In this document: piece by piece, positions 43,065-59,802 of the stretch
Layout: each line of letters begins with the position of its first letter
Position numbering within the stretch: position 1 is the stretch's first letter
Source of the DNA: Peptococcaceae bacterium BRH_c8a
GTDB lineage: Bacteria; Bacillota; Desulfotomaculia; Desulfotomaculales; Desulfallaceae
Length of the DNA: 64,000 nucleotides
NCBI GenBank assembly: GCA_000961575.1
Contig: LADP01000039.1
Location: forward strand, 62,001-126,000
Reading direction: 5' to 3'
Made by a program: the position numbers and the translations under genes
The notes under the pieces: model-generated
What the model saw: only the letters and a program-made list of their open reading frames with translations
Database searches by the model: none
Told to the model about the DNA's origin: nothing

Positions 43065-43433
43065 ATGCGCGTTGAAGGTATCAGACCGGGTGCCATGCCA
43101 GGCCAGGAAAACCAGAAGTTGCCGGAGCTGAAAACGGATTTGCCGGTTAAGAAGGCAGTAGGGGCCTCGTCAACAGCAGCCAACGGGCAACCAGTAGACC
43201 GGGAATTCTCCAAGGCTGAACTGGAACAGGCAGTCGAACAACTTAACAATACTATGCAGGCGTACTCCACTAAACTGCACTTTGAAATCCATGAAAAAAG
43301 CGGCGAAATAATGGTTAAGGTGCTCAATAGCGAAGACGGCAGCGTGGTCAGGGAAATCCCGCCGGAAAGAACTCTGGATATGGTGGCATATTTCAAGGAG
43401 ATGCTGGGGCTAATTATAGACAAAATGATATAA
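43065..43433 (+). CDS. flaG: FlaG family protein
   Basis: The 122-residue product has a disordered head and a FlaG domain with LEQAVEQLNNTMQAYSTKLH and VKVLNSEDGSVVREIPPER near the C-terminus. FlaG proteins lie beside fliD/fliS and affect filament length in some bacteria. GGAGGTG precedes the ATG. A terminator follows, so this closes the first motility block. Confidence 0.9.
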   Translation: MRVEGIRPGAMPGQENQKLPELKTDLPVKKAVGASSTAANGQPVDREFSKAELEQAVEQLNNTMQAYSTKLHFEIHEKSGEIMVKVLNSEDGSVVREIPPERTLDMVAYFKEMLGLIIDKMI

Positions 43434-43485
43434 ATTATGCTTTAGTTAATATAGCTTACTTAAAGAATTAAATACCTTCAGAAGT

Positions 43486-43516
43486 AACCGGGTCCTAACA
43501 ACAGCCCGGTTTTTTG
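43486..43516 (+). terminator. Terminator after flaG
   Basis: AACCGGG and CCCGGTT form a 7-bp stem around TCCTAACAACAG, followed by TTTTT. It is 53 nt past the flaG stop. Confidence 0.82.
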
Positions 43517-43602
43517 CTTGTTATGGTAGTAATAATGTAACCCCATATAGGACCAAGGTACTAAGTATTTTGTTAATTTTCATGTTTTTAACAAATATTT
43601 TG

Positions 43603-43631
43603 TTGAATTCTTACATTTTATACTATATAAT
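43603..43631 (+). promoter_or_regulatory. Sigma-A promoter of the flgB operon
   Basis: TTGAAT and TATAAT are separated by exactly 17 nt. The start would be near 43638, about 30 nt before the riboswitch. Early flagellar genes under sigma-A agree with basal-body genes being made before the sigma-D genes. Confidence 0.85.
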
Positions 43632-43667
43632 TTATTAAACATTCGTATATATAAAATTTAATATGCT

Positions 43668-43775
43668 TCATGGAGGGCAAACCCGGTGAAAACCGGGGGC
43701 GCAAAGCCGTGAGTCTAAGGCACCGCTATTAAGTAGGACTTAAACAGTCAGACAGGCGGGGCTATGATTGTCAGG
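43668..43775 (+). ncRNA. Cyclic-di-GMP-I (GEMM-I) riboswitch
   Basis: The conserved core is visible: GGAGGGCAAACC, then a stem CCCGGT/ACCGGG closed by GAAA, then GGGCGCAAAGCC, followed by GAGTCTAAGG and, on the other side, AGGCGGGGCTATGATTG. This is the GEMM-I pattern for c-di-GMP binding, where the GAAA loop docks in a receptor in the second stem. A terminator hairpin follows within a few bases, so the switch acts on transcription. It stands in the leader of flgB and should link c-di-GMP levels to flagellum building. An off-switch, as at flgB in C. difficile, is the likely sense, which is inferred. Confidence 0.87.
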
Positions 43776-43823
43776 TTGCAAGTGAGAAGTTTTACGGAAG
43801 GTCACTTGTGGCGTTCCTTTTTT
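43776..43823 (+). terminator. Riboswitch-controlled terminator
   Basis: CAAGTGA and TCACTTG form a 7-bp stem that extends with G-U pairs to about 11 bp, followed by GTTCC and a T-run (TTTTTT then TTTTT). It lies directly after the riboswitch core and about 150 nt before flgB. Confidence 0.75.
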
Positions 43824-43971
43824 GTTTTTATTGGAAAATATTTACTTAATAAATTAAAATACCTTAAGTTTTAAATAATTTTAAGAAATATGCGTTTTTA
43901 TGAAGGATTAGATAAAATTATGTTGAAATTTGCTTAAGGCAATGGATATATTTTCTTGCGGAGGGTTTTAA

Positions 43972-44382
43972 GTGAAAATTCTAAACGATGCCCTTAATAC
44001 TGTTCTGGTTAAACAAATGGATGCCTGCACCACGCAGCAACGGGTAATTGCTAATAATATCGCCAATGTCAATACCCCGGGCTTTAAAAAGTCCACGGTC
44101 AACTTTCAGCAGCAACTGCAAGCTGCTTTGGGGAATAGCTCCTTGGGCATGAAAGCGACAAACAAACGCCATATTGCCGGGGGCGGTCTGGACGGGCTTG
44201 GAGGGTTGGCACCCCAGATTGTAAAGGTTGATAATACTTCCATGAAAGCCGGCCAGAACAACGTGGACGTCGACGAGGAAATGGTCAACCTGGCCGCCAA
44301 CACCTTGCTGTACCAGTTTGCTACCAGGGTTAAAAGTGACCGGGCCAATTCCCTAAGCTATGTAATAAAGGGAGGCAGGTAA
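43972..44382 (+). CDS. flgB: Flagellar basal-body rod protein FlgB
   Basis: The 136-residue product has QRVIANNIANVNTPGFKKST, the N-terminal axial motif, and a C-terminal helix. FlgB forms the proximal rod. GTG start after CGGAGGG. It is the first gene of the long basal-body and export operon, and the riboswitch acts on it. Confidence 0.96.
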   Translation: MKILNDALNTVLVKQMDACTTQQRVIANNIANVNTPGFKKSTVNFQQQLQAALGNSSLGMKATNKRHIAGGGLDGLGGLAPQIVKVDNTSMKAGQNNVDVDEEMVNLAANTLLYQFATRVKSDRANSLSYVIKGGR

Positions 44383-44383
44383 T

Positions 44384-44824
44384 ATGGGCTTGTTTGACAG
44401 TTTTAACATCAGTGCTTCGGGCATGACCTCCAACCGTTACTGGGCAGATTTAATTGCCAATAACGTGGCTAATGTTAACAGTACCGGCAGGCCCGGGGAT
44501 CCCGCCAATAAACCATATCAGCGTCAGGTACCGGTCTTTGAGGCCATGCTGCGGCAAAAACTACTGGCCGGAACCGGCTCTGAAACACGTGGAAGCGGGG
44601 TGCGGGTCTCCCGACTGGCTACTGACAACAATGAACCCCGTCTGGTGTATGACCCCGAACATCCGCACGCCGACCCCGAGACAGGGTATGTAGCCTACCC
44701 CAACATCAACATCCTAAACGAGATGGTCAACTTAATTTCGGCTACCAGGGCCTACGAAGCAAACGTAACCACCCTGGAAGCAGCCAAAAGCATGTATCTT
44801 TCCGCCCTGGACATGGGCCGTTAA
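44384..44824 (+). CDS. flgC: Flagellar basal-body rod protein FlgC
   Basis: The 146-residue product starts FDSFNISASGMTSNRYWADL followed by IANNVANVN and ends with a helix containing ATRAYEANVTTLEAAKSMYL. FlgC is a rod subunit. It begins one base after flgB ends, so they are translated together. The ATG follows GGAGG. Confidence 0.96.
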   Translation: MGLFDSFNISASGMTSNRYWADLIANNVANVNSTGRPGDPANKPYQRQVPVFEAMLRQKLLAGTGSETRGSGVRVSRLATDNNEPRLVYDPEHPHADPETGYVAYPNINILNEMVNLISATRAYEANVTTLEAAKSMYLSALDMGR

Positions 44825-44852
44825 ATAAATCAGTACAAAGGAGATGCCCAGG

Positions 44853-45152
44853 ATGCAAATAATGCCTATAGCCCTACCAGTAACAAAAGGGACGCTGCCT
44901 AAAACAAACCCGGCCAACACCATCGCGGAAACAAATTCCTTTAAAGATGTTTTCGACAAGACCATTAATAACTTAAATGACAAACAATTAAATGCCAACG
45001 AAAATGTGCAAAAATTTCTTACCGGGGAAATTCAGGATATCCATACCGTTATGATTGCTATGGAAGAAGCCAAACTTTCCATGCAACTGGCCGTCGAAGT
45101 ACGCAATAAACTGGTTGAAGCTTACCAGGAACTTTCCCGGATGCAGGTTTAA
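44853..45152 (+). CDS. fliE: Flagellar hook-basal body protein FliE
   Basis: The 99-residue product is mostly helical, with FKDVFDKTINNLNDKQLNAN and the C-terminal MEEAKLSMQLAVEVRNKLVE. It links the MS-ring to the rod. I chose ATG 44853 behind AAAGGAG; an ATG at 44844 overlaps the ribosome site. It lies between flgC and fliF. Confidence 0.95.
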   Translation: MQIMPIALPVTKGTLPKTNPANTIAETNSFKDVFDKTINNLNDKQLNANENVQKFLTGEIQDIHTVMIAMEEAKLSMQLAVEVRNKLVEAYQELSRMQV

Positions 45153-45186
45153 AATAGTGCATATTGAAGGCGTGGTGAACAGCTGA

Positions 45187-46716
45187 ATGCTGGATAAGCT
45201 GCGTCAATGGTGGCAATCGCTTAGGCAGTCGCAAAGAATAACCCTTATCCTGGGCTGCACGCTGATCCTTGTTACCATTGCCGTATTAGCACAACTGATT
45301 TTACGCCCTGCTTATACCCCATTGTTTACCGAACTTGAACCATTGGATGCCGGCAAGATAATTGAAGAGTTGGAAAGCGCCAATACGCCTTACCAACTGG
45401 CCGATAACGGCAAAACCATCGAAGTACCCGAGGATATGGTATACAGGCTGCGCATCCAGATGGCCAGTACCGGGGTACTGCACAGCAGCGGAGTAGGGTT
45501 TGAGCTGTTTGACCAAAAAAAATTCGGTATTACTGAGTTTGAGCAGCATGTGGGTTACCAGCGGGCATTGCAGGAAGAACTCCGACGCACCATTGTGCAG
45601 CTTAGCGAAGTTGAACAGGCCCGCGTGCACCTGGTTTTACCCCGGGAAAGCGTATTTTTGGATGACCAGGTAACGCCATCGGCATCAATAGCCCTGAAAA
45701 TAAGACCCAACGTCAATCTGGGTTCAGACCAGGTGCGGGGCATTCAAAGCCTGGTCATGGGCAGCATCCAGGGCCTGACCCCGGAAAATGTACATATTAT
45801 TGACATGAATGGCAACATGCTGAACGACACCATGAAGACGAACGAAGAAGAAACCCTATCTGCTTCCTCAATGCAAAGGTATGAACTTAAGAAACAATAT
45901 GAAAGAGAGCTGGAAAACCGGGTCCAACAAATGTTGAACCGGATTTTGGGACCGGGCCGGGCGGTGGCCATGATCACCGCCGACCTGGACTTTGACCAGC
46001 AAGAAACAGTCCGCACCGAACATGGCCCCGGGGCGATACTCAGTGAGCAAAGCGTGATTGAAGAAGGCACTTCTGCTGCCACGGGGGGCGTTCCGGGCAT
46101 GGATTCGGAAATGCCCGGGGAAACCATGCCTTTTGAGGATAGCGGTACGGGCAACGGTTATTCCAGAGAGCAACAGGCCACAAACTATGAAGTTGACACC
46201 ACCCAGCAAGTTACGGTAAAAGCCCCGGGCAGCATTCGCAGCTTGTCGGTATCGGTGGTGGTGGACGGCACTTATTTGCCGGCCAACCTGGATAGCATTC
46301 AACAGGTGGTAGCCTCGGCAGTTGGCTATAGTGCTCAGCGGGGCGACCAGATGACCGTTTCCAGCATGAGTTTTAATGATGCATCCATACCTTCCTTCGA
46401 AGAACCGGCTTCTGAAGTGATACCGCCGGTGGCACTGCCGGTTAGTCCGCTGGTGACCGGCCTAGCGCTGGGAGCACTGTTACTACTAATCCTGGCGGTC
46501 GTGTTTTTCCGCCGGCGGGGCAACAAACGCCGGGAGATGCTGCTGGCGATACAGGCTGATGAAGAAGCCCTACTCCGGGCCAAGGAAGAGAAGGCTGAGA
46601 AAAAACAAATTGTCCTTGAGGAACCTCAATCCGGTTACCGTTCAGTAATCAAGCAAATAAGCCAAGAAAAACCGACCGAGGTAGTCGAGGTGTTAAAAGT
46701 CTGGCTCAGGGAGTAA
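45187..46716 (+). CDS. fliF: Flagellar MS-ring protein FliF
   Basis: The 509-residue product has two transmembrane helices (about residues 20-40 and 419-440) with a large domain between them that contains ARVHLVLPRESVFLDDQ and VVVDGTYLP. The C-terminal tail beyond the second helix binds FliG. It forms the MS-ring in the membrane, the base for the motor and export gate. The ATG has no strong ribosome site. Length is slightly short for the family. Confidence 0.96.
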   Translation: MLDKLRQWWQSLRQSQRITLILGCTLILVTIAVLAQLILRPAYTPLFTELEPLDAGKIIEELESANTPYQLADNGKTIEVPEDMVYRLRIQMASTGVLHSSGVGFELFDQKKFGITEFEQHVGYQRALQEELRRTIVQLSEVEQARVHLVLPRESVFLDDQVTPSASIALKIRPNVNLGSDQVRGIQSLVMGSIQGLTPENVHIIDMNGNMLNDTMKTNEEETLSASSMQRYELKKQYERELENRVQQMLNRILGPGRAVAMITADLDFDQQETVRTEHGPGAILSEQSVIEEGTSAATGGVPGMDSEMPGETMPFEDSGTGNGYSREQQATNYEVDTTQQVTVKAPGSIRSLSVSVVVDGTYLPANLDSIQQVVASAVGYSAQRGDQMTVSSMSFNDASIPSFEEPASEVIPPVALPVSPLVTGLALGALLLLILAVVFFRRRGNKRREMLLAIQADEEALLRAKEEKAEKKQIVLEEPQSGYRSVIKQISQEKPTEVVEVLKVWLRE

Positions 46717-46720
46717 TAAC

Positions 46721-47731
46721 ATGCCCAGTGCATCAAAATTAACCGGATTGCAAAAAACTGCCATACTGCTTATCTCACTGGGTGCCGACCTGTCGGCGGA
46801 ACTGCTTAAAAAGCACTTTCACCAGGAGGATATAGAAAAAATTTCACAGCAAATCACCATGATGGATACCATCCCCAGGGAAATCCAGGATGAAGTGCTG
46901 GAGGAATTCGCCCAACTAATCCAAGCCAGGGAATACCTGATGGTTGGTGGTATCGACTATGCCAAGGAAATGCTGCAAAAAGCTATGGGCGACCATAAAG
47001 CGTTAGAAATCCTGGATAAAGTTCAGCACTCCATCAAAAACCGTCCGTTTAGCTCACTGCGCAAAACGGACCCGAAGCACCTGTTATCATTTATTCGCGA
47101 CGAACACCCCCAGATAATTGCCTTAATCCTGAACCACCTGCATCCCGAACAGGCCTCCCTGGTGTTATCGGCCCTAAGCCCGGAACAGCAGAGCGATATC
47201 GCCCGCCGGGTGGCCATGACCGACCGCGTATCTCCTGAAATGATGCGGGAGGTGGAAAATATATTGGAGCGCAAACTGTCCGTGTTGGAAACCAGTGAAC
47301 CCAGTTCCGGGGGTATTAAATCACTGGTGGACATTTTAAACCGGGTTGACCGCGGCACCGAAAAAACCATTTTAGAGGAACTTGAGGTCTCCGACCCCGA
47401 TCTCACCGAGGAAATACGCAAACTATTATTTGTATTTGAAGATATTGTTAAGCTGCCTGACCCGTCCATACAGCGGGTTCTCCGTGAAGTGGATCCCAAA
47501 GACCTGGCCAAGGCGATGCGGGGCACCAACGATGATGTTCAGGAACGTATTTTTAAAAACATGTCCAAACGGGCTTCCGATATGCTGCGGGACGAAATCA
47601 AGTACATGGGTCCCATCCGCTTAAGAGATGTGGAAGATTCACAGCAGAAAATAGTGCAAATCATCCGGCGTTTGGATGAGGCTGGTGAAATCGTAATTGC
47701 CAGGGGAGGGGAAGATGCCATCATTGCATAG
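46721..47731 (+). CDS. fliG: Flagellar motor switch protein FliG
   Basis: The 336-residue product has the FliG domains: LTGLQKTAILLISLGADLSA at the N-terminus, the EHPQIIALILNHLHPEQASL middle motif, and a C-terminal domain with charged residues for MotA contact (VDPKDLAKAMRGTNDDVQER). It is the rotor part that meets the stator. It begins four bases after fliF. Confidence 0.97.
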   Translation: MPSASKLTGLQKTAILLISLGADLSAELLKKHFHQEDIEKISQQITMMDTIPREIQDEVLEEFAQLIQAREYLMVGGIDYAKEMLQKAMGDHKALEILDKVQHSIKNRPFSSLRKTDPKHLLSFIRDEHPQIIALILNHLHPEQASLVLSALSPEQQSDIARRVAMTDRVSPEMMREVENILERKLSVLETSEPSSGGIKSLVDILNRVDRGTEKTILEELEVSDPDLTEEIRKLLFVFEDIVKLPDPSIQRVLREVDPKDLAKAMRGTNDDVQERIFKNMSKRASDMLRDEIKYMGPIRLRDVEDSQQKIVQIIRRLDEAGEIVIARGGEDAIIA

Positions 47732-48482
47732 GATAATTCGCAGGAATGAAGGCGCCGGTGAACCGAAGGGACACTATAACCTGGCCCTAAAAACCGAATT
47801 CACCTTTGAAACATCCCGTCTAAATAAGCAGCGGGATGAAACATCCGGAAAATATAACGAATTGTCAGACGCCATGCTGCATCAAGCCAAAAAAGAAGCC
47901 GCTGCCATTATGGATCAGGCCGGCGTACAGGCCGCGGCCATGCTGGAAGAAGCCCGGCAGCATGCGGCTGCGGAAGTCGAAAAAGTAAAAACAGCTGCGG
48001 CCAGGGAAGGTTATGAACAGGGACACCAGTCGGCGCTGGAGACTGCCGGGGAAGAGGCTGCCAGTATCCGCAGCGAAGCCAGAAAAGTGCTGGCCCAAGC
48101 CGAAGATATGCGCCGGCAAAAGTTTGAACAACTGAAAGAAGAGCTTTTAAGCCTGGCTATTGAAATGGCCGAAAAAATTGTCACCAGAGAGCTTGAAACA
48201 AGGTCCGATGTGGTACTGAGCATCGCCGAAGAAGCTATTTTACTGGCCGGCAGCCGTGAGCATGTGGTTTTATGGATTAATCCTGCTGAATTAGAGGTTT
48301 GCCAGACCAGGCGGGAGAGTTTGCTGGCGCTGTTGCCGCCCCGGGCCGAATTGCAGATTATGACCGACCCGGCTATTGAACCGGGCGGTTGTGTATTGGA
48401 AAACGAGTACGGCAAAGTAGACGCCAGGCTGTCCAACAGGTGGCAAAACCTGCTGGCCTCCCTCAAGCAAGGGACAGAGTAA
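47715..48482 (+). CDS. fliH: Flagellar export apparatus protein FliH
   Basis: The 255-residue product has a disordered N-terminus and a long coiled coil with AAAxxxE repeats (LHQAKKEAAAIMDQAG). Its C-terminal domain has KIVTRELETRSDVVLSIAEE and NEYGKVDARLSNRWQNL. FliH binds and regulates the FliI ATPase. I chose ATG 47715 behind GGGGAGGGG. It overlaps the end of fliG by 17 nt. Confidence 0.93.
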   Translation: MPSLHRIIRRNEGAGEPKGHYNLALKTEFTFETSRLNKQRDETSGKYNELSDAMLHQAKKEAAAIMDQAGVQAAAMLEEARQHAAAEVEKVKTAAAREGYEQGHQSALETAGEEAASIRSEARKVLAQAEDMRRQKFEQLKEELLSLAIEMAEKIVTRELETRSDVVLSIAEEAILLAGSREHVVLWINPAELEVCQTRRESLLALLPPRAELQIMTDPAIEPGGCVLENEYGKVDARLSNRWQNLLASLKQGTE

Positions 48483-48485
48483 CTT

Positions 48486-49808
48486 ATGCCTACAGAACAC
48501 TTAAACCTGGAAATCAATAACTGGCGGGAGAAAGTTCGCCGTACCCGGTTAATTCGCTCCACCGGCAAGGTTAGTAAAGTAATTGGCCTGACCGTGGAGG
48601 TAAAGGGGATCTCTGCCGGGGTCAGTGAGGTATGTGATATTTACGTGCCGGGTGAAAAAGAACCCATCAAGGCCGAGGTGGTGGGTTTTCAGGATCACTC
48701 TTCGCTGCTGATGCCCCTGGGCGAATTAAGCGGCATCTGCCCGGGCTGCCAGGTGATACCAAGGGGCGAAGCACTTACCGTACGGGTGGGGGACGAACTG
48801 CTGGGTCGCGTTCTGGACGGGCTGGGTAGGCCCATTGACGGTCACAGCCTAAAAGTCACCGGTGAATACCCGGTCAACAATGCTCCCCCCGAGCCGCTGG
48901 CCAGAAAGCGCATTAAAGACGTATTAACCACCGGTATTAAAGCCATCGATGCCCTGTTAACCTGCGGCCAGGGCCAGCGCATCGGCATATTTGCAGGCAG
49001 CGGGGTGGGCAAGAGCACCCTTTTGGGCATGATTGCCCGGTACTGCAGCGCCGACCTGAATGTAATCGCCCTAATCGGCGAGCGAGGTCGCGAGGTGCTG
49101 GATTTTATCGAAAACGATTTGGGTCCCGAGGGTCTGTCTCGTTCAGTGGTGGTGGCCGCCACTTCGGACCAGCCGGCGCTAGTCAGGATCAAGGGAGCCC
49201 TGGTGGCCAGCGCCATAGCCGAATATTTTCGAGACCAGGGTAAGAATGTGTTGCTGTTTATGGACTCCGTCACCAGGTTCGCCATGTCCCAGCGCGAAAT
49301 CGGCCTGGCCATAGGGGAACCGCCCACCACCCGGGGTTACACACCTTCGGTTTTCAGCCTGCTGCCCCGGGTGCTGGAGCGCTCCGGCACCTCCCGTAAC
49401 GGTTCCATCACCGCCTTTTACACGGTGCTGGTGGAGGCCGACGACATGAACGAACCCGTGGCAGACACGGTACGGGGCATTTTGGACGGCCATATTGTCC
49501 TCTCCCGGGAACTGGCTTCTCGGGGCCATTATCCAGCCATAGATGTTATGCAAAGCGTTAGCCGGCTGATGCCGGATTTGGTATCCGAAGAGCACAGCCG
49601 GGCGGCGGCGCAACTGCGCCACCTGCTGGCCACGTACAAGCAAGCCGAAGACTTGATTAATGTGGGTGCCTACTCCAGGGGATCAAACCCCGAAATTGAT
49701 GCCGCCATTAAGTACCATGACCGCATTACCAGCTTTTTGCGCCAGGGAGTTAGCGAAAAATCCGCGTTTGATAGCACCGTTGGGCAAATCTCGATGATGC
49801 AGGAGTGA
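48486..49808 (+). CDS. fliI: Flagellum-specific ATPase FliI
   Basis: The 440-residue product has Walker A IGIFAGSGVGKSTLLGM, Walker B VLLFMDSVTRFA and ALIGERGREVLDF. The N-terminal part is a beta-barrel as in F1-ATPase. It forms a hexamer that powers flagellar protein export. The start is four bases after fliH. Length is typical. Confidence 0.97.
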   Translation: MPTEHLNLEINNWREKVRRTRLIRSTGKVSKVIGLTVEVKGISAGVSEVCDIYVPGEKEPIKAEVVGFQDHSSLLMPLGELSGICPGCQVIPRGEALTVRVGDELLGRVLDGLGRPIDGHSLKVTGEYPVNNAPPEPLARKRIKDVLTTGIKAIDALLTCGQGQRIGIFAGSGVGKSTLLGMIARYCSADLNVIALIGERGREVLDFIENDLGPEGLSRSVVVAATSDQPALVRIKGALVASAIAEYFRDQGKNVLLFMDSVTRFAMSQREIGLAIGEPPTTRGYTPSVFSLLPRVLERSGTSRNGSITAFYTVLVEADDMNEPVADTVRGILDGHIVLSRELASRGHYPAIDVMQSVSRLMPDLVSEEHSRAAAQLRHLLATYKQAEDLINVGAYSRGSNPEIDAAIKYHDRITSFLRQGVSEKSAFDSTVGQISMMQE

Positions 49809-49813
49809 TAACG

Positions 49814-50266
49814 ATGCGCAAGTTTGATTTCCGTCTTGAACCGGTTTTAAAGCACCGGGAAATTCTAGAGGAGCAGGCCGCCGCCCAAAAGGCCAGTGCG
49901 CAAAACGAATACCGACACCATCAGGACATCCTGAACGAGGCCCGGAATAAGCTGGCCGGCGCGACCCGGGACGACCAGGCGCTAAACCCCTTCGATATGT
50001 TTAATAAGCTGGCTTATTGTGATTACATGACAAGTGAAGTTAAAAGACGGGAAACCGCGCTAAATGTATCCCGCCATAAACTAGAGAAATGTCGCAAAAA
50101 CCTGGTAAAGACTATGCAAGACCGGTCGGTAATGGAAAAGCTGCGCGAAAAAAAGCTTAACATCTATAACCAGACCGTCGTGACCGCAGAACAAAAGGAA
50201 ACCGACGAGATGGCTGTACTGATGTACAATGTGGCTGTAAACAGTTCTGAACCCAGTCTTGACTAA
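49814..50266 (+). CDS. fliJ: Flagellar export protein FliJ
   Basis: The 150-residue product starts MRKFDFRLEPVLKHREILEE and is a long coiled coil through its length. FliJ is the stalk-like part of the export ATPase and assists chaperones. I chose ATG 49814 behind AGGAGTG; a GTG at 49805 is inside that site. It overlaps or adjoins fliI. Confidence 0.93.
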   Translation: MRKFDFRLEPVLKHREILEEQAAAQKASAQNEYRHHQDILNEARNKLAGATRDDQALNPFDMFNKLAYCDYMTSEVKRRETALNVSRHKLEKCRKNLVKTMQDRSVMEKLREKKLNIYNQTVVTAEQKETDEMAVLMYNVAVNSSEPSLD

Positions 50267-50316
50267 TTGCCGGCAGGGAACAGAATTGCACAGATAAATT
50301 TCCATGCTGAAAGGGG

Positions 50317-51903
50317 GTGAACAAAACGCAAGTGCAAAGTAATATTCAGGCCGCCCAAACAATGCAGCCCTGCGGAAGTCCTGCAAGTTCGATTGCAAGG
50401 AGTGACGGTTGGCCCAGCCTGGATTTCATGTCCATCCTGCAGGTGATATTTGCCCGCCATACTCTCGCCGCCGCTGGTAAAGAATGCTGCAACTTAGGCT
50501 ATGGAAAAGAGCAAGCCCAGTCTAGTACCAACCTGCAAACTAATCTGTCTGATCAGTTCTTCCCAGTCACCAGCGACGATACGGCAGACCGGGAAGATGC
50601 CGCTGTAGCTATGATAGCCTCAGAACCGGTGCTTATGGAGTTGCTCGCGATGTTACCGGGTAAGCTGCTGCAAAACTGGGAGGCCGGTATGCCGCAGGAA
50701 GAAGACGGTTTACCAAATAGCTTTTTACAGGCTGCCCAAGAAGTGCCGGCGTTCAACAATTATATGAATGCGGAAATTAAGGTTGACGAAACGGTTTTAG
50801 GGCCGGAAGGTGTCACGACAAAACCAATCATTAGTAACGGTCTGCCAGTGCTGCCAGGTTGGCTTAATCTTACGCAGGAACAAAAACAGCAGCCGCTCCA
50901 ATTTTTAAACCAGGATCACATCCAACAAACGCTAAAACATTTGGAGCAATACCTGCTGCTAGCTGAAAAACCAACCGCTCCTGCTAGCAATGCAGCCGGG
51001 GTAACCCAAAATACAATTGAGGGTGCCGCTACACTGAATAATTTAGCACCCATGGCAGAGCAGCTTTCCAGCATGCTGCGAGATTTGATAAAGAGTCCGT
51101 ATAACCAAACACCGGACAACAGGTTACAAACCCAGCCGGTATTAGAAAAGATAGCCACAAGCCCAGGCATTAACGTCAGCAACATTAACGTCAGCAACAT
51201 TAACGTCAGCAACATTAACGTCAGCAACATTAACGTAAGTAACATTAATGTAAAATCCTTAACGCATAATTTTAATTTAAACGAAGCAACAACAGCCACA
51301 ACCGGTAATGGTGCAGTTAACGGCCTACCCAATGTAAACACAGCATTAGAACCATCTAATAACACACCCCGGGCAGACCTGCCCCAGGTTGCACTAAACA
51401 ATTTCGATTCAATAGCTACAGTTACCAAATCCATGGGCGGAGAAACGGCACCGGCATCACGCAGTATCGAACAGCCGCTGTTAATGCAACTGGCCGAAGC
51501 CATCCGGGGGCAAATTGCCAAAGACGGTCTTGGAAGCACCCACGTCCGGCTGCAATTACAGCCCGAAAGTCTGGGCGAAGTGGTAATCAAATTGGTGTAC
51601 AAAGACGGTAACGTATCGACCCACTTCCATGCCGCCACCGAAAGCGTTCGCCAAATTATTGAAAGTTCCCTCGGCCAACTGAGGGAAACCCTGGCCACGC
51701 ACAACATTAACCTGCAGCAGTCCACGGTGACTACCGGAGGTGATCAGGGACGCTGGGCGCAGGAATCAAACCGCGACCAGCAATTTAATCGGCCTGGTCG
51801 GCAATCAAGCAACGGGCCCGGCGCCAGAGAAGAAATAGCCTCTGAACCGGTAATTGAAAAGCCAAAAATGATTTATCAGAACCGCGTGAACCATTTTGTA
51901 TAA
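50317..51903 (+). CDS. fliK: Flagellar hook-length control protein FliK
   Basis: The 528-residue product has a long, low-conservation N-terminal part and the FliK C-terminal domain with HVRLQLQPESLGEVVIKLVY followed by SSLGQLRETLATHNINLQQS. It measures the hook and switches export from hook to filament proteins. Residues 284-313 hold about six copies of a pentapeptide (NINVS), encoded by a 15-nt tandem repeat at 51168-51257, in the linker region. GTG 50317 is in the ribosome site AAAGGGGGTG, and GTG 50332 is an alternative start. Confidence 0.9.
   Translation: MNKTQVQSNIQAAQTMQPCGSPASSIARSDGWPSLDFMSILQVIFARHTLAAAGKECCNLGYGKEQAQSSTNLQTNLSDQFFPVTSDDTADREDAAVAMIASEPVLMELLAMLPGKLLQNWEAGMPQEEDGLPNSFLQAAQEVPAFNNYMNAEIKVDETVLGPEGVTTKPIISNGLPVLPGWLNLTQEQKQQPLQFLNQDHIQQTLKHLEQYLLLAEKPTAPASNAAGVTQNTIEGAATLNNLAPMAEQLSSMLRDLIKSPYNQTPDNRLQTQPVLEKIATSPGINVSNINVSNINVSNINVSNINVSNINVKSLTHNFNLNEATTATTGNGAVNGLPNVNTALEPSNNTPRADLPQVALNNFDSIATVTKSMGGETAPASRSIEQPLLMQLAEAIRGQIAKDGLGSTHVRLQLQPESLGEVVIKLVYKDGNVSTHFHAATESVRQIIESSLGQLRETLATHNINLQQSTVTTGGDQGRWAQESNRDQQFNRPGRQSSNGPGAREEIASEPVIEKPKMIYQNRVNHFV
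51168..51257 (+). repeat. 15-nt tandem repeat in fliK, about six units
   Basis: CATTAACGTCAGCAA occurs in four perfect copies from 51168, then in two degenerate copies with AAGTAA- and AAAATC-type ends. It encodes a NINVS-type pentapeptide. Gain or loss of units would keep the frame, so it changes only the length of the FliK linker. Confidence 0.92.
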
Positions 51904-51918
51904 CCAAGGAGGTGCGAC

Positions 51919-52593
51919 ATGACAGAAGCAATCAGTAGCAGCAGCAACGATTATTACCTACCGGATAAGAACAAAACCAAAGAACAACAGGGACTGGCTG
52001 ATCCCGCAGCTTTCCTGAAAATCCTGGTGGCCCAGATGAAGTACCAGAACCCTATGCAGCCCCAGGATAGCGAAACCTTCATTAGCCAGTTGACCCAGAT
52101 GGCCTCCATGGAGCAGATGTACAACATGGGTCAGAGTATGGACAAAATGGCTACACAGTACGAGATGGCCCGGTACTTCCAACTTATCGGCCAGCAGGTA
52201 TCTCTGGTTAACGAGGATGAAATAATAACCGGCCAAGTTGGTGGCGTAACCCTTTTAGATGATCAGCCAACTTTTTACCTGGATGGAGGTTTCAGCGGCG
52301 AACATTATACATTGGACCAAGTGATAAACATAACCGGCAACGCTAACGATAACTCACTTTTACCATATCTAGACTTGGTCGACCGTCAAGTTACAGTTAT
52401 AGACGACAATGTTGAAATTTCCGGGCTAGTAGAAAAGGTGCTCATGCAAAACGGGAACGTGCTCATTACAATAGACGGCTCGGAATACAGTGTGGGACAG
52501 ATTATTGAACTGCACAGCAGGCCCGAAGAAGAAACAACAACCGTTCCAGAAGTCGAAACCGAAACCACAGAGGAAATAATAACCGAGGTATAA
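51919..52593 (+). CDS. flgD: Flagellar hook assembly protein FlgD
   Basis: The 224-residue product has KYQNPMQPQDSETFISQLTQ followed by MASMEQM, the FlgD signature, and a C-terminal beta domain. The last residues are unusually acidic and rich in Thr and Glu (EEETTTVPEVETETTEE). FlgD is the hook scaffold. AAGGAGGTG precedes the ATG. Confidence 0.95.
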   Translation: MTEAISSSSNDYYLPDKNKTKEQQGLADPAAFLKILVAQMKYQNPMQPQDSETFISQLTQMASMEQMYNMGQSMDKMATQYEMARYFQLIGQQVSLVNEDEIITGQVGGVTLLDDQPTFYLDGGFSGEHYTLDQVINITGNANDNSLLPYLDLVDRQVTVIDDNVEISGLVEKVLMQNGNVLITIDGSEYSVGQIIELHSRPEEETTTVPEVETETTEEIITEV

Positions 52594-52638
52594 ACGAAAG
52601 TATGTATACCTCAATGGGCGAAGGGTAGGTGAAATACA

Positions 52639-53031
52639 TTGAACGTCAAGGGGGTGCAGTTCACTCCCGAACCGATTGTTCGGAAAACCGGTCCGGGCGC
52701 TACCAAACCCCAAGCCGGCAGTAACGCCACAGGCAGTTTCCAAGATGTTTTGTTTCGGGAACTGGCAAACATTGGGCAAATTAAAGTTTCCGCCCATGCC
52801 CAGAAAAGGATGCAGGAAAGGAACATCAATTTGGGCAGTGAGGACTGGCATAAAATAAACGATGCCATGAATAAGGCGGAGGCCAAGGGAGCCAAAAACT
52901 CCTTGTTTATTCACGGTGAACTGGCTCTTATTGTCAGCGTAAAAAATCGCACCGTAGTGTCCGCCATCGACGAAGAATCAATAAAGGAGCATGTCTTTAC
53001 CAATATAGACAGCGCCATATTCACCAAATAA
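52639..53031 (+). CDS. TIGR02530-type flagellar operon protein
   Basis: The 130-residue product has the conserved IKVSAHAQKRMQERNINLGS and ALIVSVKNRTVVSAID segments of the flagellar operon protein family found after flgD in many Firmicutes. Function is not known. TTG start behind GGTAGGTG. It has a disordered N-terminal 30 residues and a compact domain after it. Confidence 0.8.
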   Translation: MNVKGVQFTPEPIVRKTGPGATKPQAGSNATGSFQDVLFRELANIGQIKVSAHAQKRMQERNINLGSEDWHKINDAMNKAEAKGAKNSLFIHGELALIVSVKNRTVVSAIDEESIKEHVFTNIDSAIFTK

Positions 53032-53125
53032 GCAGCCGGACCTTCGGGAGGCTGTGGGCCGCCGAATGAATGAAGTGGCCCGGAAATTAACAGCTTTTAG
53101 CCATTTAGTTATCAAGGAGGTTACT

Positions 53126-53923
53126 ATGATCCGATTAATGTATTCCGGGGTGTCTGGAATGCGAAGCCACCAGGTGCGCATGGACATCATCGGCAATAAC
53201 ATATCCAATGAAAATACAACCGCCTACAAGTCTACCAGAGCCGACTTCAAAGACACTCTATACCAGGCCATCGGCGCATCCGGTAACGCCAAAGGAGCCT
53301 GCCAGGTCGGCACCGGGGTAGGTATTGCAGGTATAACAAGTAATTTTGACCAAGGGCCGCTTCAGCCCACCGGGCGGAAGCTAGACCTGGCCATCAAAGG
53401 TTCCGGTTTTTTTGGTGCGCTGGATACGTATGGTAATTTAAAGTTCACCAGGGATGGGGCATTTTTCTTTGACAAGGCCGGGTACCTATTGAATGCTTCA
53501 GGCCTCAATGTTGTCGATGCTGACGGGGAGGCAATTATAATAGAAGACCTGCACGACCGGAAGAAGGTTGAAATCTCAGAGAACGGTGAAATATTCAAGT
53601 CCGAGTTTGATTTGGGGACGGGAGAAACCGAATACACCACCCTGGGTCAGATAGGCCTGTTTAATTTTCAAAACGTGCCCGGCCTGTCCAAAACAGGGGA
53701 TAACCTGTTCCTGGAAAACGATAACACCGGGGAAAGGACATCCAACGCAGAAGGCCCCGATGGTTTCGGCACTATTTATTCCGGGTATCTGGAAGCAGCC
53801 AACCTGGACTTGATTGGTGAACTGTCCAACCTTATTGCCACTCAGCGCGGCTACCAGGCCAACGCTAAGGCTTTTATGACTGCGGATGAGGTGCTGCAGG
53901 AAACTATTCAGCTAAAACGCTAG
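53126..53923 (+). CDS. Flagellar hook/rod protein, FlgE/FlgG-type (short paralogue)
   Basis: The 265-residue product starts MIRLMYSGVSGMRSHQVRMD and has the axial motif IIGNNISNEN. The C-terminus ATQRGYQANAKAFMTADEVL pairs with the N-terminus. The length is like B. subtilis FlgE (about 264 residues). It is followed 37 nt later by a longer relative with a similar start. Its role could be rod or hook. I chose ATG 53126 after AAGGAGG; an in-frame start 72 nt earlier lacks a ribosome site. Confidence 0.85.
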   Translation: MIRLMYSGVSGMRSHQVRMDIIGNNISNENTTAYKSTRADFKDTLYQAIGASGNAKGACQVGTGVGIAGITSNFDQGPLQPTGRKLDLAIKGSGFFGALDTYGNLKFTRDGAFFFDKAGYLLNASGLNVVDADGEAIIIEDLHDRKKVEISENGEIFKSEFDLGTGETEYTTLGQIGLFNFQNVPGLSKTGDNLFLENDNTGERTSNAEGPDGFGTIYSGYLEAANLDLIGELSNLIATQRGYQANAKAFMTADEVLQETIQLKR

Positions 53924-53960
53924 GTTTAAATTATAAACATTAAACAAGGAGGGTAAATAG

Positions 53961-55151
53961 ATGATTCGTTCTCTCTTTTCAGGAGTTTCAGGCATGAAAA
54001 GCCATCAGATACGCATGGACGTAATCGGTAACAACATCGCTAATGTTAATACAGTCGGTTTTAAAAGAGGCCGAGCCAATTTTGAAGATACACTTTACCA
54101 AACCATTAAAAGTTCCAGTAAAACAACCAACCCCGCTCAGGCAGGTCTGGGTACTTCGATTGCTGGCATAACCTCAGATATGAATTCAGGGGGATTGCAG
54201 TCCACAGGCAGGGCCCTGGATCTGGCCATTAACGGTGACGGGTTTTTCAGGTTTTCTGATCCCAATAAAAATTATGACGATGTCAGCAACAAATTATACG
54301 GTAGAGAAGGTACACTTTATATCGGTAATAATGGCAGTATCATCAATTCTAATGGTTTGAAATTGGTTGCCTACCAGTGGGACAGGGCGCTCGAAACTGC
54401 AACGACTGCTCCAGCAGTGACGGCTGACGGACAAATTGAATTGCAGAGGATTAAAGTGGATCCCAATACTCTCCAACCAATAACAACACCTGCTTATCCA
54501 ATTATACCTGTTGACATTAGTACTGGTATGACAGTAGATGAAATTGTTGATGTAATTAACACTAAAACCAGCAATACCGGAGTCGTTGCCTCTAATACGA
54601 ATGGCTTTTTAACCTTGGCTTCTGAATTAAATTCACTGGACGGATTTAGAATCGGTGCTATTGGTGCAGGCATAGATTTGGGAACCGGACTAAATGCAAA
54701 TACAACATATAGCTACGACTCTGCGTCTTACGGTCAACGTCCACTTGAAATTGACCCCGATGATATTCCCGTTGGCAGCATCAAATTTTTAAACGACGGC
54801 AGCGTTATCGGATATGATAACCAAGGGAACAACCTGGAATGGACAGACATGGAAGGAAATAAATACGATTCTACAATGATTAAATTATTTACTTTCCCAA
54901 ACCAGGACGGTCTGGAAAGGGTTGATAAAAACATTTTCACCCTCAGTCCAAGCAGTGGTAAGGAACAAGAAGGCGTATCAGGCACCACTGGTTACGGAAC
55001 CATTGAATCAGGTTACCTGGAAATGTCCAATGTTGACCTGACGGATGAGTTTTCCACCATGATCACCACCCAGCGCGGTTATCAGGCCAGCGCCAGGATG
55101 ATTACCATTTCGGACACAATGCTGGAAGAGTTGCTGAACCTGAAACGCTAA
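53961..55151 (+). CDS. flgE: Flagellar hook protein FlgE
   Basis: The 396-residue product starts MIRSLFSGVSGMKSHQIRMD followed by VIGNNIANVNTVGFKRGRAN, the hook protein signature. It ends with TQRGYQASARMITISDTMLE. Residues about 140-300 form the exposed insert that is absent from the short paralogue upstream and more AT-rich. It forms the hook. The ATG follows AAGGAGG. A GC-rich hairpin lies after the stop. Confidence 0.93.
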   Translation: MIRSLFSGVSGMKSHQIRMDVIGNNIANVNTVGFKRGRANFEDTLYQTIKSSSKTTNPAQAGLGTSIAGITSDMNSGGLQSTGRALDLAINGDGFFRFSDPNKNYDDVSNKLYGREGTLYIGNNGSIINSNGLKLVAYQWDRALETATTAPAVTADGQIELQRIKVDPNTLQPITTPAYPIIPVDISTGMTVDEIVDVINTKTSNTGVVASNTNGFLTLASELNSLDGFRIGAIGAGIDLGTGLNANTTYSYDSASYGQRPLEIDPDDIPVGSIKFLNDGSVIGYDNQGNNLEWTDMEGNKYDSTMIKLFTFPNQDGLERVDKNIFTLSPSSGKEQEGVSGTTGYGTIESGYLEMSNVDLTDEFSTMITTQRGYQASARMITISDTMLEELLNLKR

Positions 55152-55160
55152 TAGCCTATT

Positions 55161-55183
55161 CCGCGCGCCGTGACGGCGCGCGG
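55161..55183 (+). repeat. GC-rich hairpin after flgE
   Basis: CCGCGCGCCG and CGGCGCGCGG are perfect 10-bp arms around TGA. No T-run follows, so it is not a simple terminator. It could block 3' exonucleases and shape the relative levels of flgE and fliL mRNA. Confidence 0.7.
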
Positions 55184-55298
55184 ACAAAACCTATTGCCAG
55201 ATAATTTAATTCAGAAACATTTGGCGCATACTTGGCCTGAATGAACAACACATATGAAGACTACCGTTAATAACGATTCTTAGGTAGGGTGAGGAAAA

Positions 55299-55814
55299 AT
55301 GGCATTCAGAAAACCGAACAAAAAGGAAGTAGGAACAAAAAACGCAAGTACCGCCGCAGAAAAAAAATCCGGCGTAGGTAACCTGGTAGTGTTGTTTGCC
55401 ATGATGATGGTGGTATTTCTGGTGGGCGCCGGTATGGTCATTGGTTATTTCAGATTCCTGGATCCGGACAAAAAGGAAGCCGAGGCGGAAACAAAAGAAC
55501 AAGAAGTGGTGATGCAGGCCATGGATTTGGGTGACATGGTGGTTAATCTGGCCGACCAGGACGGCAGCCATTATTTAAAACTTACCATTACCATCGAGCA
55601 CCCGGTTGATAAGGAAATTGAAGCAAAAATTAATGAAAAAAAACATCTGATTACCGAAACTATTTTACTTACTCTGCGCAGTAAGAACCTGAACCAGGTC
55701 CGTCCTCCGGAAGCTATCGACCAATTAAAGAATGAACTTGTGACGGCAGTTAATAATCGCCTGGGCGAGCCGGTCATCGCTAAGATTTATTTTACCGAGT
55801 ACATTGTGCAGTAA
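55299..55814 (+). CDS. fliL: Flagellar basal-body-associated protein FliL
   Basis: The 171-residue product has one transmembrane helix (about residues 26-50), then a domain with YLKLTITIEHPVDKEIEAKI and QLKNELVTAVNNRLGEPVIA. FliL surrounds the stator and is needed for full torque in some species. GTGAGG precedes the ATG. The last codons (GTGCAGTAA) are repeated three more times in the gap downstream. Confidence 0.93.
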   Translation: MAFRKPNKKEVGTKNASTAAEKKSGVGNLVVLFAMMMVVFLVGAGMVIGYFRFLDPDKKEAEAETKEQEVVMQAMDLGDMVVNLADQDGSHYLKLTITIEHPVDKEIEAKINEKKHLITETILLTLRSKNLNQVRPPEAIDQLKNELVTAVNNRLGEPVIAKIYFTEYIVQ

Positions 55815-55878
55815 ATATTACCGAAAATAGTCCATTAAACTGTGCAGTAAAAAATTGTGCAGTAAACAGTGCAGTAAA
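55806..55878 (+). repeat. GTGCAGTAAA repeated four times at the fliL end
   Basis: GTGCAGTAAA occurs at 55806, 55842, 55857 and 55869; the first one contains the fliL stop codon. The later copies look like short duplications of the fliL tail. They run directly into a GTCATCCTGAGCG element. The usual place of fliM is here. Confidence 0.8.
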
Positions 55879-55880
55879 AT

Positions 55881-55936
55881 GTCATCCTGAGCGTAGCGAA
55901 GGATCTGGGCTTTAAGATTCTTCGCTGCGCCAGCAA
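55881..55936 (+). repeat. GTCATCCTGAGCG-family element, copy 4
   Basis: Begins GTCATCCTGAGCGTAGCGAA and has a second arm AGATTCTTCGCTGCG, but the end is more diverged than at 1293. It lies in the fliL-fliN gap among other repeats. Confidence 0.8.
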
Positions 55937-55990
55937 ACTACTAACTATCGACTACTGACTACTGACTACTGAATTCTGAATTCTAACTAC
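55937..55990 (+). repeat. AGTCAGTAGTCAG dispersed repeat, copy 5 (inverted)
   Basis: CGACTACTGACTACTGACTA continues into CTGAATTCTGAATTC. Same units as at 9698 in the opposite direction. It is the longest run in the window and ends 17 nt before the fliN start. Confidence 0.75.
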
Positions 55991-56007
55991 ATAAGGGGTT
56001 TTAACGT

Positions 56008-56388
56008 ATGCTCTCTCAACGCGAACTGGACGAATTCCTGGGTGATTTCAGTGAAAACAAGACAACGGTTAAAAAGGTGCAGTTTCCTGCACTCAGTGCC
56101 AGTGCCGCACTGCCCCAGGCCCGCCTACCCATGGAGTTTGTTGGTGATGTGATTGTAGATATCTGTGCCGAACTGGGCAAGGCAACCCTAACCGTAAAAG
56201 AAATTCTTAATATCAAGGAAGATTATATTATTGAACTGGAAAAGGCGGCGGGAGACAATATTAACCTTAAGGTAAACGGCCAGGAATTCGCCAAGGGTGA
56301 AGTGATTATCATCGGCAATAACTTGGGCATCCGGGTGGACCGGATTCTTGAACTGGGTCATTCCAAAACCAACAAGGAAGCTAAATAA
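56008..56388 (+). CDS. fliN: Flagellar motor switch protein FliN, with FliM/FliY-like N-terminus
   Basis: The 126-residue product has a SpoA/FliN domain at its C-terminus (LGKATLTVKEILNIKEDYII, GNNLGIRVDRIL). The N-terminus MLSQRELDEFLGDF resembles the LSQxEIDxLL helix that begins FliM and FliY, where CheY or CheC-type partners bind. It is far shorter than FliY. It lies after fliL, where Firmicutes normally have fliM and then fliY or fliN. No fliM was found in this window. The ATG is preceded by AAGGGG. Confidence 0.88.
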   Translation: MLSQRELDEFLGDFSENKTTVKKVQFPALSASAALPQARLPMEFVGDVIVDICAELGKATLTVKEILNIKEDYIIELEKAAGDNINLKVNGQEFAKGEVIIIGNNLGIRVDRILELGHSKTNKEAK

Positions 56389-56736
56389 ATGGATAAAGAA
56401 TTACTGGCCGCACTAATTCGGATTATCATTTTACTGCCCTTGATTTGTGTGCTGGCTTACCTTACTGTACGTTTCGGCCTGGGTCGATCAAAACACTTGG
56501 CGGCTTACGGCGCCGGTAAAAGGATGCGGGTATTGGAACAGGTATCTATGGGGCCCAAATGCGGGTTAACTCTAACGCAGGTGGGTGATAGGTATATGCT
56601 TTTCGCCCACCAAGAAAACTGCATTATCCTGGTGCGTGAAATGGATCAACCGCCGGAGGAAATTAGTGCGGCCGCCCAGGCCGTGCCGGGCCTGGCCCAA
56701 GTAATTCAGGGCATTCGTACCAAGCGTAGAAAATAA
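56389..56736 (+). CDS. fliO: Flagellar biosynthesis protein FliO
   Basis: The 115-residue product has one transmembrane helix (about residues 8-30) and a basic cytoplasmic domain with RMRVLEQVSMGPKCGLTLTQ. FliO helps assemble the FliP part of the export gate. It starts at the base after the fliN stop. Usual length for Firmicutes FliO. Confidence 0.88.
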   Translation: MDKELLAALIRIIILLPLICVLAYLTVRFGLGRSKHLAAYGAGKRMRVLEQVSMGPKCGLTLTQVGDRYMLFAHQENCIILVREMDQPPEEISAAAQAVPGLAQVIQGIRTKRRK

Positions 56737-56789
56737 GACCGGCAGTAACTGATTAATGCTAAAAGAAATGCAACAAGGCGGGAGAAATA

Positions 56790-57557
56790 TTGACAACTAA
56801 CTGCTGGAAAAAGAATATGCTATTCCTGGCATTGCCGGTTCTATTAACCATCTTATTCCTGGAACCGCTTCCGGTGTCGGCCCAGCCGCTGCCGGGCATA
56901 GACCTAAATATTCAGCCCACCGATGAGCCGGGGCAAGTGGTAAACAGCATTAAGATACTGCTCATGTTCACCCTGCTTTCCCTGGTGCCGGCGATCCTGC
57001 TGATGATGACCAGTTTTACCCGCATCATCGTGGTTCTTTCATTACTACGTACCGCCATAGGCACCCAGCAGGCACCGCCCAACCAGGTAATCATCGGCCT
57101 GGCTCTGTTTTTAACCCTATTTGTGATGGCCCCGGTGTTTACGCAGGTTAATGAACAAGCTGTAGAACCGTACCTAAATGATGAAATTTCCCAGGAGCAG
57201 GCTTGGGATAACGCATACAGCCCGCTGCGCTCATTCATGCTCCGCCAGACCAGGGAAAAAGACCTGGCCTTGTTTGTAAACCTGGCTGAAATAGAAAGGC
57301 CCAACAGCCCCCAAGATCTTCCGGCCCGGGTGGTGATGCCGGCTTTTGTAATCAGTGAATTGAAAACAGCTTTTCAAATTGGTTTTATGATTTATATTCC
57401 TTTTTTGGTTATTGACATGGTGGTGGCCAGCACCCTGATGTCGATGGGGATGTTCATGCTGCCGCCGGTCATGATATCACTGCCTTTTAAGATCTTACTT
57501 TTCGTGATGGTAGACGGCTGGCACCTGGTGGTTAAAACCCTGGTGGAGAGTTTTTAG
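56790..57557 (+). CDS. fliP: Flagellar export gate protein FliP
   Basis: The 255-residue product has a signal peptide (residues about 9-32) and four later helices. TSFTRIIVVLSLLRTAIGTQ and PPNQVIIGLALFLTLFVMAP are the FliP signatures. FliP forms the core of the export gate with FliQ and FliR. TTG start behind GCGGGAG. Confidence 0.96.
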   Translation: MTTNCWKKNMLFLALPVLLTILFLEPLPVSAQPLPGIDLNIQPTDEPGQVVNSIKILLMFTLLSLVPAILLMMTSFTRIIVVLSLLRTAIGTQQAPPNQVIIGLALFLTLFVMAPVFTQVNEQAVEPYLNDEISQEQAWDNAYSPLRSFMLRQTREKDLALFVNLAEIERPNSPQDLPARVVMPAFVISELKTAFQIGFMIYIPFLVIDMVVASTLMSMGMFMLPPVMISLPFKILLFVMVDGWHLVVKTLVESF

Positions 57558-57569
57558 GGGGGTTACGAT

Positions 57570-57839
57570 TTGACCGAAAGTTTTATTATCGAACTAGTAC
57601 GGGAGGCCATCATGATGGTCTGTATTATCGCCCTGCCACCGCTGGTGGTTGCGCTGCTGGTAGGCCTGGTGATTAGCATCATGCAGGCCGCCACCCAAGT
57701 ACAGGAGCAGTCGCTTACTTTTGTGCCCAAAATAATTGCGGTTTTTTTAACCCTGGCCATTATGGCCCCCTGGTCAATTCGGATTATGATTAGCTTTACC
57801 AACCGAGTGTTTAACAGGATTCCCGATTTGCTCAGGTAA
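57570..57839 (+). CDS. fliQ: Flagellar export gate protein FliQ
   Basis: The 89-residue product has two transmembrane helices (about residues 17-38 and 52-74) with IIALPPLVVALLVGLVISIM and TQVQEQSLTFVPKI between them. It is part of the export gate. TTG start behind GGGGGG. It begins 12 nt after fliP. Confidence 0.95.
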   Translation: MTESFIIELVREAIMMVCIIALPPLVVALLVGLVISIMQAATQVQEQSLTFVPKIIAVFLTLAIMAPWSIRIMISFTNRVFNRIPDLLR

Positions 57840-57842
57840 GGA

Positions 57843-58619
57843 GTGCGGGTATTGCCGGATATTGAACAATTGGCCTTATTTTTTCTGGCATTGGCAAGAA
57901 TTACAGCCTTCTTCATTGCTGGACCGTTTTTTTCGTTACGCAACATCCCGGCAACAGTTAAGGTTGGCCTATCACTAATGGTTGCATTAACCGTTTTCCC
58001 GCTCATCGGCCCCGAATACGAGGCTGCCTCGCTGGACGGCTGGGCATACATTTTTGCCTTGGTACGAGAAACACTGGTGGGCCTGGCCATAGGTTACACA
58101 GCCAGTTTGCTGTTAGTGGCAGTGGTTTACGCGGGCAGCCTGATGGACATACATATTGGATTTTTTATGAGCCAGATTTTCGACCCTTTATCAGGCAGCA
58201 TGGCCGGGATCCTCTCCCGGTTCATGTACCTGTTGGGCATGGCGGCTTTGTTGGCCTTTAACGGTCACCACCTGATTATTGCCGCGCTGGTAAATAGTTT
58301 TCAACTGGTACCGCTGAACACCGCCCAGGTAACTGGCGCATCAGCTCTGTTTTTGATTAAAATTTTTGCCCAGATGCTCACCATCGGCGTGCAAATTGCA
58401 GCTCCACTGGTAGCGGTAATGCTGATTATCGATGTAACTATGGGCCTGATAGCCCGGACCGCACCGCAGATAAATGTTTTTATGCTGGGGTTTCCCGTAA
58501 AGATTACTGCCGGGCTAATCACCTTAAGCGTAATGGTGCCGGTACTGGCCCGCATTATCTATTCACTTTGCGACATTATTGAAAAAGACATCACCATCCT
58601 TTTGAAGGGATTGACCTGA
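57843..58619 (+). CDS. fliR: Flagellar export gate protein FliR
   Basis: The 258-residue product has about six transmembrane helices. AFFIAGPFFSLRNIPATVKV and the C-terminal helix GLITLSVMVPVLARIIYSL are typical. It overlaps flhB by one base (TGATG), so the two are coupled. GTG 57843 and TTG 57852 are possible starts. Confidence 0.94.
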   Translation: MRVLPDIEQLALFFLALARITAFFIAGPFFSLRNIPATVKVGLSLMVALTVFPLIGPEYEAASLDGWAYIFALVRETLVGLAIGYTASLLLVAVVYAGSLMDIHIGFFMSQIFDPLSGSMAGILSRFMYLLGMAALLAFNGHHLIIAALVNSFQLVPLNTAQVTGASALFLIKIFAQMLTIGVQIAAPLVAVMLIIDVTMGLIARTAPQINVFMLGFPVKITAGLITLSVMVPVLARIIYSLCDIIEKDITILLKGLT

Positions 58620-59689: not shown

Positions 59690-59692
59690 TTT

Positions 59693-59749: not shown

Positions 59750-59802
59750 AAGCAAGGCTTGGGCTTGGACTTGGACTTTGAATCGAGTTGGAGGAATCTG
59801 TT

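Follow-up and report, generated by a model that had tools for sequence, protein, structure and literature searches.

The closest described system to the locus studied here is the Cd1 (Cdi-1-3) riboswitch at flgB of C. difficile, which the passages concerned present as an OFF switch operating by a choice between a terminator and an antiterminator (PMC6366702, PMC9262584). The flgB leader in the 64,000-nucleotide stretch of DNA analyzed here (the window) resembles Cd1 in that a class I aptamer and a terminator stand before an early flagellar operon including sigD, and the logic predicted for it is OFF; this likeness is drawn from the published description. The parallel with C. difficile flgB that the earlier note had drawn is thus supported by the Cd1 passages of PMC6366702. 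Set against Cd1, the window shows a P3 hairpin which is about 30 nt longer than in the window's own relatives, and a sigma-H-type promoter motif behind the terminator, which goes unmentioned in the Cd1 passages of PMC6366702 and PMC9262584. The explanation that we favor as a whole, with a probability of roughly 70%, is an OFF riboswitch with a sigma-H bypass.

The aptamer is located at 43666-43783 on the + strand. A cmscan search of the 64 kb gave a full-length match (1-87) to the c-di-GMP-I (GEMM-I) family RF01051 with 64.0 bits, compared with a gathering cut-off of 35, and an E value of 3.2e-10. The only other Rfam match above gathering in the window was a tRNA. The GEMM-I core, which had been proposed before the basal-body operon together with the Rfam model as a check, is therefore recovered above the cut-off. 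The core is intact and the approximately 30 extra nucleotides are in the P3 hairpin. When the RF01051 alignment is inspected by eye, the GNRA tetraloop (GAAA) of P2 and the UCUAAGG...CUAUGA of P3 match the consensus; we take the latter to be the tetraloop receptor. The sequence suggests a P1 helix, used in the folding model below, in which 43667-43671 pairs with 43782-43786 (both + strand), and this 3' strand overlaps the antiterminator. The c-di-GMP-I-GGC variant (RF03167) shares an Rfam clan with the window aptamer, which matches RF01051 instead. This variant occurs before flgB in four relatives (L044, L132, L145, L199) and behind flgC in two others (L041, L046). Very long P3 inserts were seen before flgB at L043, L044, L135, L141, L143 and L144 (matches of 138-165 nt versus about 87).

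Folding also recovered the terminator that had been claimed behind the aptamer (43796-43823, + strand). The stem-loop GGAA-G-GUCA-CUUG-UGGC-G-UUCC at 43796-43817 is followed by a tract of six U (43818-43823), and its energy ranges from -8.6 to -10 kcal/mol, depending on the stretch that is folded. A simple terminator scan listed no terminator at 43796-43823, because the stem contains a 1x1 mismatch. In ligand-free folds the sequence GUUGCAAGUGA (43775-43785, + strand) pairs with UCACUUGUGGC (43802-43812, + strand), which is within the terminator stem-loop. The resulting antiterminator of 11 bp is built from aptamer and P1 nucleotides and destroys the terminator; its 5' strand covers the end of P3, the presumed C92-equivalent at 43779 and most of the P1 3' strand. 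Because of these shared nucleotides the folded aptamer and the antiterminator are mutually exclusive, and the same holds for the antiterminator and the terminator.

The minimum-energy folds of growing ligand-free transcripts contain the antiterminator for ends from 43814 to 43826; with ends at 43830 or beyond, the terminator is the minimum-energy fold even without ligand, and the predicted energy gap between the two is small. An ensemble model of 43639-43823 gives 70% antiterminator and 3% terminator without ligand, and about 65% terminator when P2 and P3 are stabilized by the ligand with at least 8 kcal/mol. If P1 is required too, the terminator fraction is 0.56 at 8 kcal/mol and 0.67-0.68 at 10-14 kcal/mol. 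Among the host family's 9 riboswitch leaders, L019 has a shorter helix; in the other 8, 82 of the 88 positions form pairs between the two antiterminator strands, and 3 of the 11 positions show double changes. When the strands were permuted among leaders, 203 of 2000 permutations paired as well as the observed ones, so the pattern reflects conservation more than covariation. Shuffling the downstream stretch gave an equally good helix in 0-2 of 300 cases for 6 of 7 leaders that were scored; the shorter helix of the seventh, L019, was reached by 106 of 300 shuffles.

A wider hairpin search, imperfect and run without a shuffle control, found hairpins in 54 of 63 riboswitch leaders, although 9 of them overlap the aptamer end and some are 70-96 nt off. 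This search missed the terminator of L020, which was taken from the antiterminator comparison of leaders instead. Automated ON/OFF calls from tail folding were dropped from the counts since antiterminator hairpins were mistaken for terminators in several leaders. In the window a terminator lies between the aptamer and the gene, and by folding the antiterminator excludes both aptamer and terminator, as in an OFF switch of the Cd1 type. This anatomy predicts a c-di-GMP OFF switch, in which c-di-GMP would drive termination.

The leader is preceded by a sigma-A-like promoter, TTGAAT-17-TATAAT (43603-43631, + strand), which matches the consensus at 10 of 12 positions. A single match of this kind is weak and not significant: 43420-44000 contains 6 sigma-A-like sites versus 2.5 +/- 1.9 in shuffles. 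The sigma-A promoter postulated ahead of the aptamer gains support from the relatives, in that the best match before the aptamer scores 9-12 of 12 in all 9 riboswitch flgB leaders of the host family, the window included; it scores 8-9 of 12 in 8 Pelotomaculum-like leaders (the same scan for both, no shuffle control). Upstream of this unit lies a row with flagellin, fliD, fliS and flaG genes. A terminator-like hairpin behind flaG (approximately 43486-43515) folds at -13.3 kcal/mol, so that flgB seems to begin a separate transcription unit, apart from the flaG row.

Behind the leader, flgB (43972-44382; TIGR01396, 101 bits versus a cut-off of 59) is the first gene of a basal-body row on the + strand. 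The remainder of the row, within 44384-63953, contains flgC, fliE, fliF, fliG, fliH, fliI, fliJ, fliK (a weak match) and flgD, followed by a small flagellar protein, an flgE/F/G-type and an flgE-type gene, fliL, an fliN-like gene, fliO, fliP, fliQ (open reading frame 57570-57839, by position only), fliR, flhB, flhA, flhF (SRP54 GTPase) and flhG (ParA/MinD). From flgB to flhG there are 23 genes inside the window, and the row continues beyond it with about 10 more (L283). These include genes for a PilZ/YcgR protein, two flgE/F/G-type genes, cheD, cheR, a cheC-like gene, a single-domain response regulator, fliM, an fliY-like gene and a sigma-70 factor, which is of the sigD type by position and domains. 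The row from flgB to its end may form one transcript. The PilZ/YcgR gene lies at L283 2070-2726 in this row. PilZ proteins elsewhere brake the flagellar motor together with c-di-GMP (PMC6366702); with a YcgR-like gene in the same row, c-di-GMP would lower the brake gene along with the flagellum.

Between the terminator and flgB there is a full sigma-H-type site, GAAGGATTAGATAAAATTATGTTGAAA, at 43902-43928 on the + strand, i.e., GAAGGATTA-N11-GTTGAAA. We scanned 171 flgB leaders of up to 450 nt with the pattern RNAGGRNWW-N11/12-RNNGAAW; one of the 172 flgB loci was left out since its leader is too short. The pattern occurs in 83 of the 171 leaders versus 3.4 expected from dinucleotide shuffles. 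This conservation is tied to the spacing: 61 leaders have the pattern at a spacing of 11 and 22 at 12, while any other spacing between 4 and 21 is seen in 0-6 leaders. On the reverse strand there are none at 11 and 12, and a 450-nt coding control gives 2 of 171. Positions that the pattern leaves free are conserved as well, with a T before the R in 79 of 88 instances and a T after it in 70 of 88.

Mapped sigma-H starts of Sporomusa have an AGGA -35 and a GAAT -10 which are 17-18 nt apart, and several classes, among them COG N (cell motility), are over-represented in the Sporomusa sigma-H set (PMC12456013). The same spacing is given there for Bacillota sigma-H promoters of Sporomusa and C. difficile, and in the flgB leaders AGGA and GAA are likewise 17-18 nt apart; the sigma-H promoter passages of that paper do not name the flagellar operon as a target. 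The window site contains AGGA at a spacing of 17, but its -10 is GAAA, a form shared by every one of the host family's 9 strict matches, in place of the GAAT of the Sporomusa and C. difficile promoters (PMC12456013, same passages), which is also the commoner form. Of the 9 riboswitch leaders in the host family, 2 fail the strict pattern (L018 reads GAAG by eye; L028 has no match).

The host genome encodes SigH (TIGR02859, 382.5 bits versus a cut-off of 294.8). It also contains a second sigma-H-like gene, L270 (C19:49875-50456), which with 199 bits is below this cut-off. A stricter form of the pattern occurs 19 times in the host genome compared with 4 in a backward control, and 5 of 12 genome sites that we looked at are inside an open reading frame; a single sigma-H match therefore proves little. 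A sigma-A-like match at 43923-43952 overlaps the -10 of the motif, so the sigma factor at 43902-43928 is not certain. Whichever factor it is, a promoter at this site would bypass the riboswitch because it lies after the terminator. The sequence makes a second, sigma-H-type promoter likely, which would let some transcription escape c-di-GMP control. The window has three sigma-H-type motifs, none of them on the - strand; one at 25485-25511 precedes a DUF342/FapA-like gene and then a MotB-like gene (both by eye). Among the best 80 flgB loci of the matches listed from many phyla, the pattern was found in 9 of 30 Bacillota and 1 of 6 Planctomycetota, and in none of 23 Actinomycetota, 11 Pseudomonadota and 10 others.

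Taken as a mechanism, these parts would work as follows. The sigma-A-type promoter at 43603 would start the leader RNA and the c-di-GMP-I aptamer would fold. Without ligand, 43775-43785 would pair with 43802-43812, the terminator would be broken and RNA polymerase would read on through flgB into the rest of the flagellar row. Once c-di-GMP is bound, 43775-43785 would be held by P1, P3 and the ligand-contacting C, the terminator at 43796-43817 would form and transcription would stop. RNA from the sigma-H-type promoter at 43902-43928 would start past the terminator and hence lack the riboswitch. The operon would be on either with sigma A and low c-di-GMP or with active sigma H; use of either promoter (43603 or 43902) is predicted from sequence. 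The earlier note had c-di-GMP stopping about 20 flagellar genes at once. The long flagellar row downstream and the OFF direction, by anatomy and folding, agree with this claim; it is kept for the sigma-A transcripts only, given the sigma-H-type motif behind the terminator, which would bypass the switch.

The main rival, which is the reading of the earlier note, is a pure Cd1-like OFF switch, in which the sigma-A promoter is the sole one, all transcription of the operon is controlled by c-di-GMP and the downstream motif is unused. The covariance match, the folds and the ensemble model all fit such a switch, and the C. difficile flgB operon works in this way according to the Cd1 passages of PMC6366702. 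We nevertheless consider it unlikely, since the motif is retained at -70 to -78 in 7 of the host family's 9 riboswitch leaders and is also present in 56 of the 108 leaders that lack a riboswitch. An ON switch, with c-di-GMP binding preventing termination as in the ON-type B. thuringiensis Bc2 (PMC6366702), was rejected as highly improbable: the terminator stem at 43796-43817 does not include the P1 3' strand, P1 competes with the antiterminator, and holding the aptamer shifts the folding model towards termination. Anatomy and folding model thus both favor the OFF direction. By eye, on the RF01051 alignment and in Vc2 numbering, the window aptamer reads G20, A47 and C92 at the ligand-contacting positions. 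These are the residues found in c-di-GMP sensors, and the window aptamer probably binds c-di-GMP. These positions and residues, as well as the Rfam match being to RF01051, leave very little room for an aptamer that senses another cyclic dinucleotide, 3',3'-cGAMP. Such sensing occurs in a closely similar riboswitch, that of Geobacter pilM (PMC9262584).

RF01051 has a match somewhere in the genome of 54 out of 60 relatives. The search for FlgB covered 113 genomes of the class (one order), 95 of which gave a match, and 199 genomes of the phylum, where 172 gave a match, 6 of these from the host order. Of the order loci 92 of 95 were examined, leaving out three with weak matches only. The other phylum loci, 80 of 166, were hand-picked from the best-scoring matches listed, with some near duplicates skipped, and this sample leans towards FlgB proteins like that of the window. 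Both sets of loci were searched with a covariance model from 23 aptamers, 11 of which are order flgB leaders and match by construction. In the 900 nt preceding flgB, a c-di-GMP-I aptamer on the strand of the gene was present at 34 of the 92 order loci, from 7 of 17 families, and at 29 of the 80 others, from 23 of 54 families; three loci have less than 350 nt of upstream DNA. Rfam gathering scores, which are independent of this model, gave 33 of 92 order loci, the difference being L133. Rfam found the same 7 positives as the model among 18 other phylum loci, and the remaining 62 were searched by the model alone. Six positive loci are weak by the model (33-45 bits), of which L141 reaches 61 bits in Rfam. 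The earlier note had read the arrangement as reuse in a different lineage. With these counts the placement is common in Bacillota.

A FastTree phylogeny was computed from FlgB and FlgC (171 rows, 167 with FlgC). On this tree, riboswitch presence switches 12 times across the 91 order leaders, compared with a shuffle mean of 27.7 (0 of 300 as low); this indicates that the riboswitch is inherited at short range within the order. The 80 other phylum leaders show 20 changes versus a shuffle mean of 23.6, a value reached by 18 of 300 shuffles, so that presence hardly follows the tree there; the wider distribution may reflect either deep ancestry or repeated gain. Four of the best 80 flgB loci listed from many phyla have an aptamer match. 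Two of these are from Pelotomaculum, one with the aptamer behind flgB. The Pelotomaculum scores equal those of two genomes of family f8 and one shares the promoter motif letter for letter, from which we infer that f8 is the Pelotomaculum family.

Other aptamers were encountered in these searches. Five genomes from four families have one inside the operon, between flgC-like and fliE-like genes by eye (L041 2411-2500, L046 921-1011, L138 564-649, L169 1797-1884, L180 550-632). Those of L041 and L046 are of the GGC variant, all five have a hairpin-like stretch before fliE, and at none of these loci did the stretch examined contain an aptamer match before flgB. The host genome (4.17 Mb) has 16 c-di-GMP-I matches (L001-L016), two of them marginal. 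They precede genes for three GGDEF proteins, an HD-domain protein, a Cache-HAMP protein, a PilB-like MshEN/T2SSE ATPase and, twice, ComFB (the second copy by near identity), as well as a transglutaminase gene behind a tandem pair; three genes gave no Pfam match. Tandem aptamers occur at L037, L244 and L196 and, in the host genome, at L002/L009; at L037 both are before flgB, each with a terminator-like hairpin behind it. The marginal L015 (36.1 bits) has a changed P2 and, by eye, a broken reading frame behind it, and is perhaps a decaying copy.

The motif and the riboswitch are not linked: of the 63 leaders with a riboswitch, 27 contain the sigma-H motif, which is no commoner there than in those without. 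Their order differs between lineages. In the host family the motif is behind the riboswitch in the 7 leaders that have it, and in the Pelotomaculum-like family it is in front in 6 of 8 riboswitch leaders. Among all order leaders with a riboswitch the motif is behind the aptamer in 7, all of the host family, and before it in 7, the seventh being from family f15. The other phylum riboswitch leaders contain 12 motif instances before the aptamer and 5 behind it. The c-di-GMP-I OFF switch itself is ordinary but well-built and of a known kind. We found the promoter arrangement undescribed; none of the matches listed from the open-access literature describes this leader, a sigma-H promoter at flgB or the promoter order.

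These data show that the placement of the riboswitch at C. difficile flgB is widespread, with C. difficile as one example. The odds are about even that the early flagellar operon of Bacillota has brought together a terminating c-di-GMP-I riboswitch and a sigma-H promoter, either since ancient times or repeatedly. Lineages would differ in the order of the two, with the promoter behind as a bypass or in front as a gated one (Pelotomaculum-like), or in having the riboswitch inside the operon after flgC, and an OR would be swapped to an AND with the same parts. As a rule, the order of promoter and riboswitch would decide whether c-di-GMP holds a veto over the flagellar genes. If the motif, which is present in about half of the sampled leaders, is used, flagellar synthesis in many Bacillota would be tied to the transition-state sigma factor.
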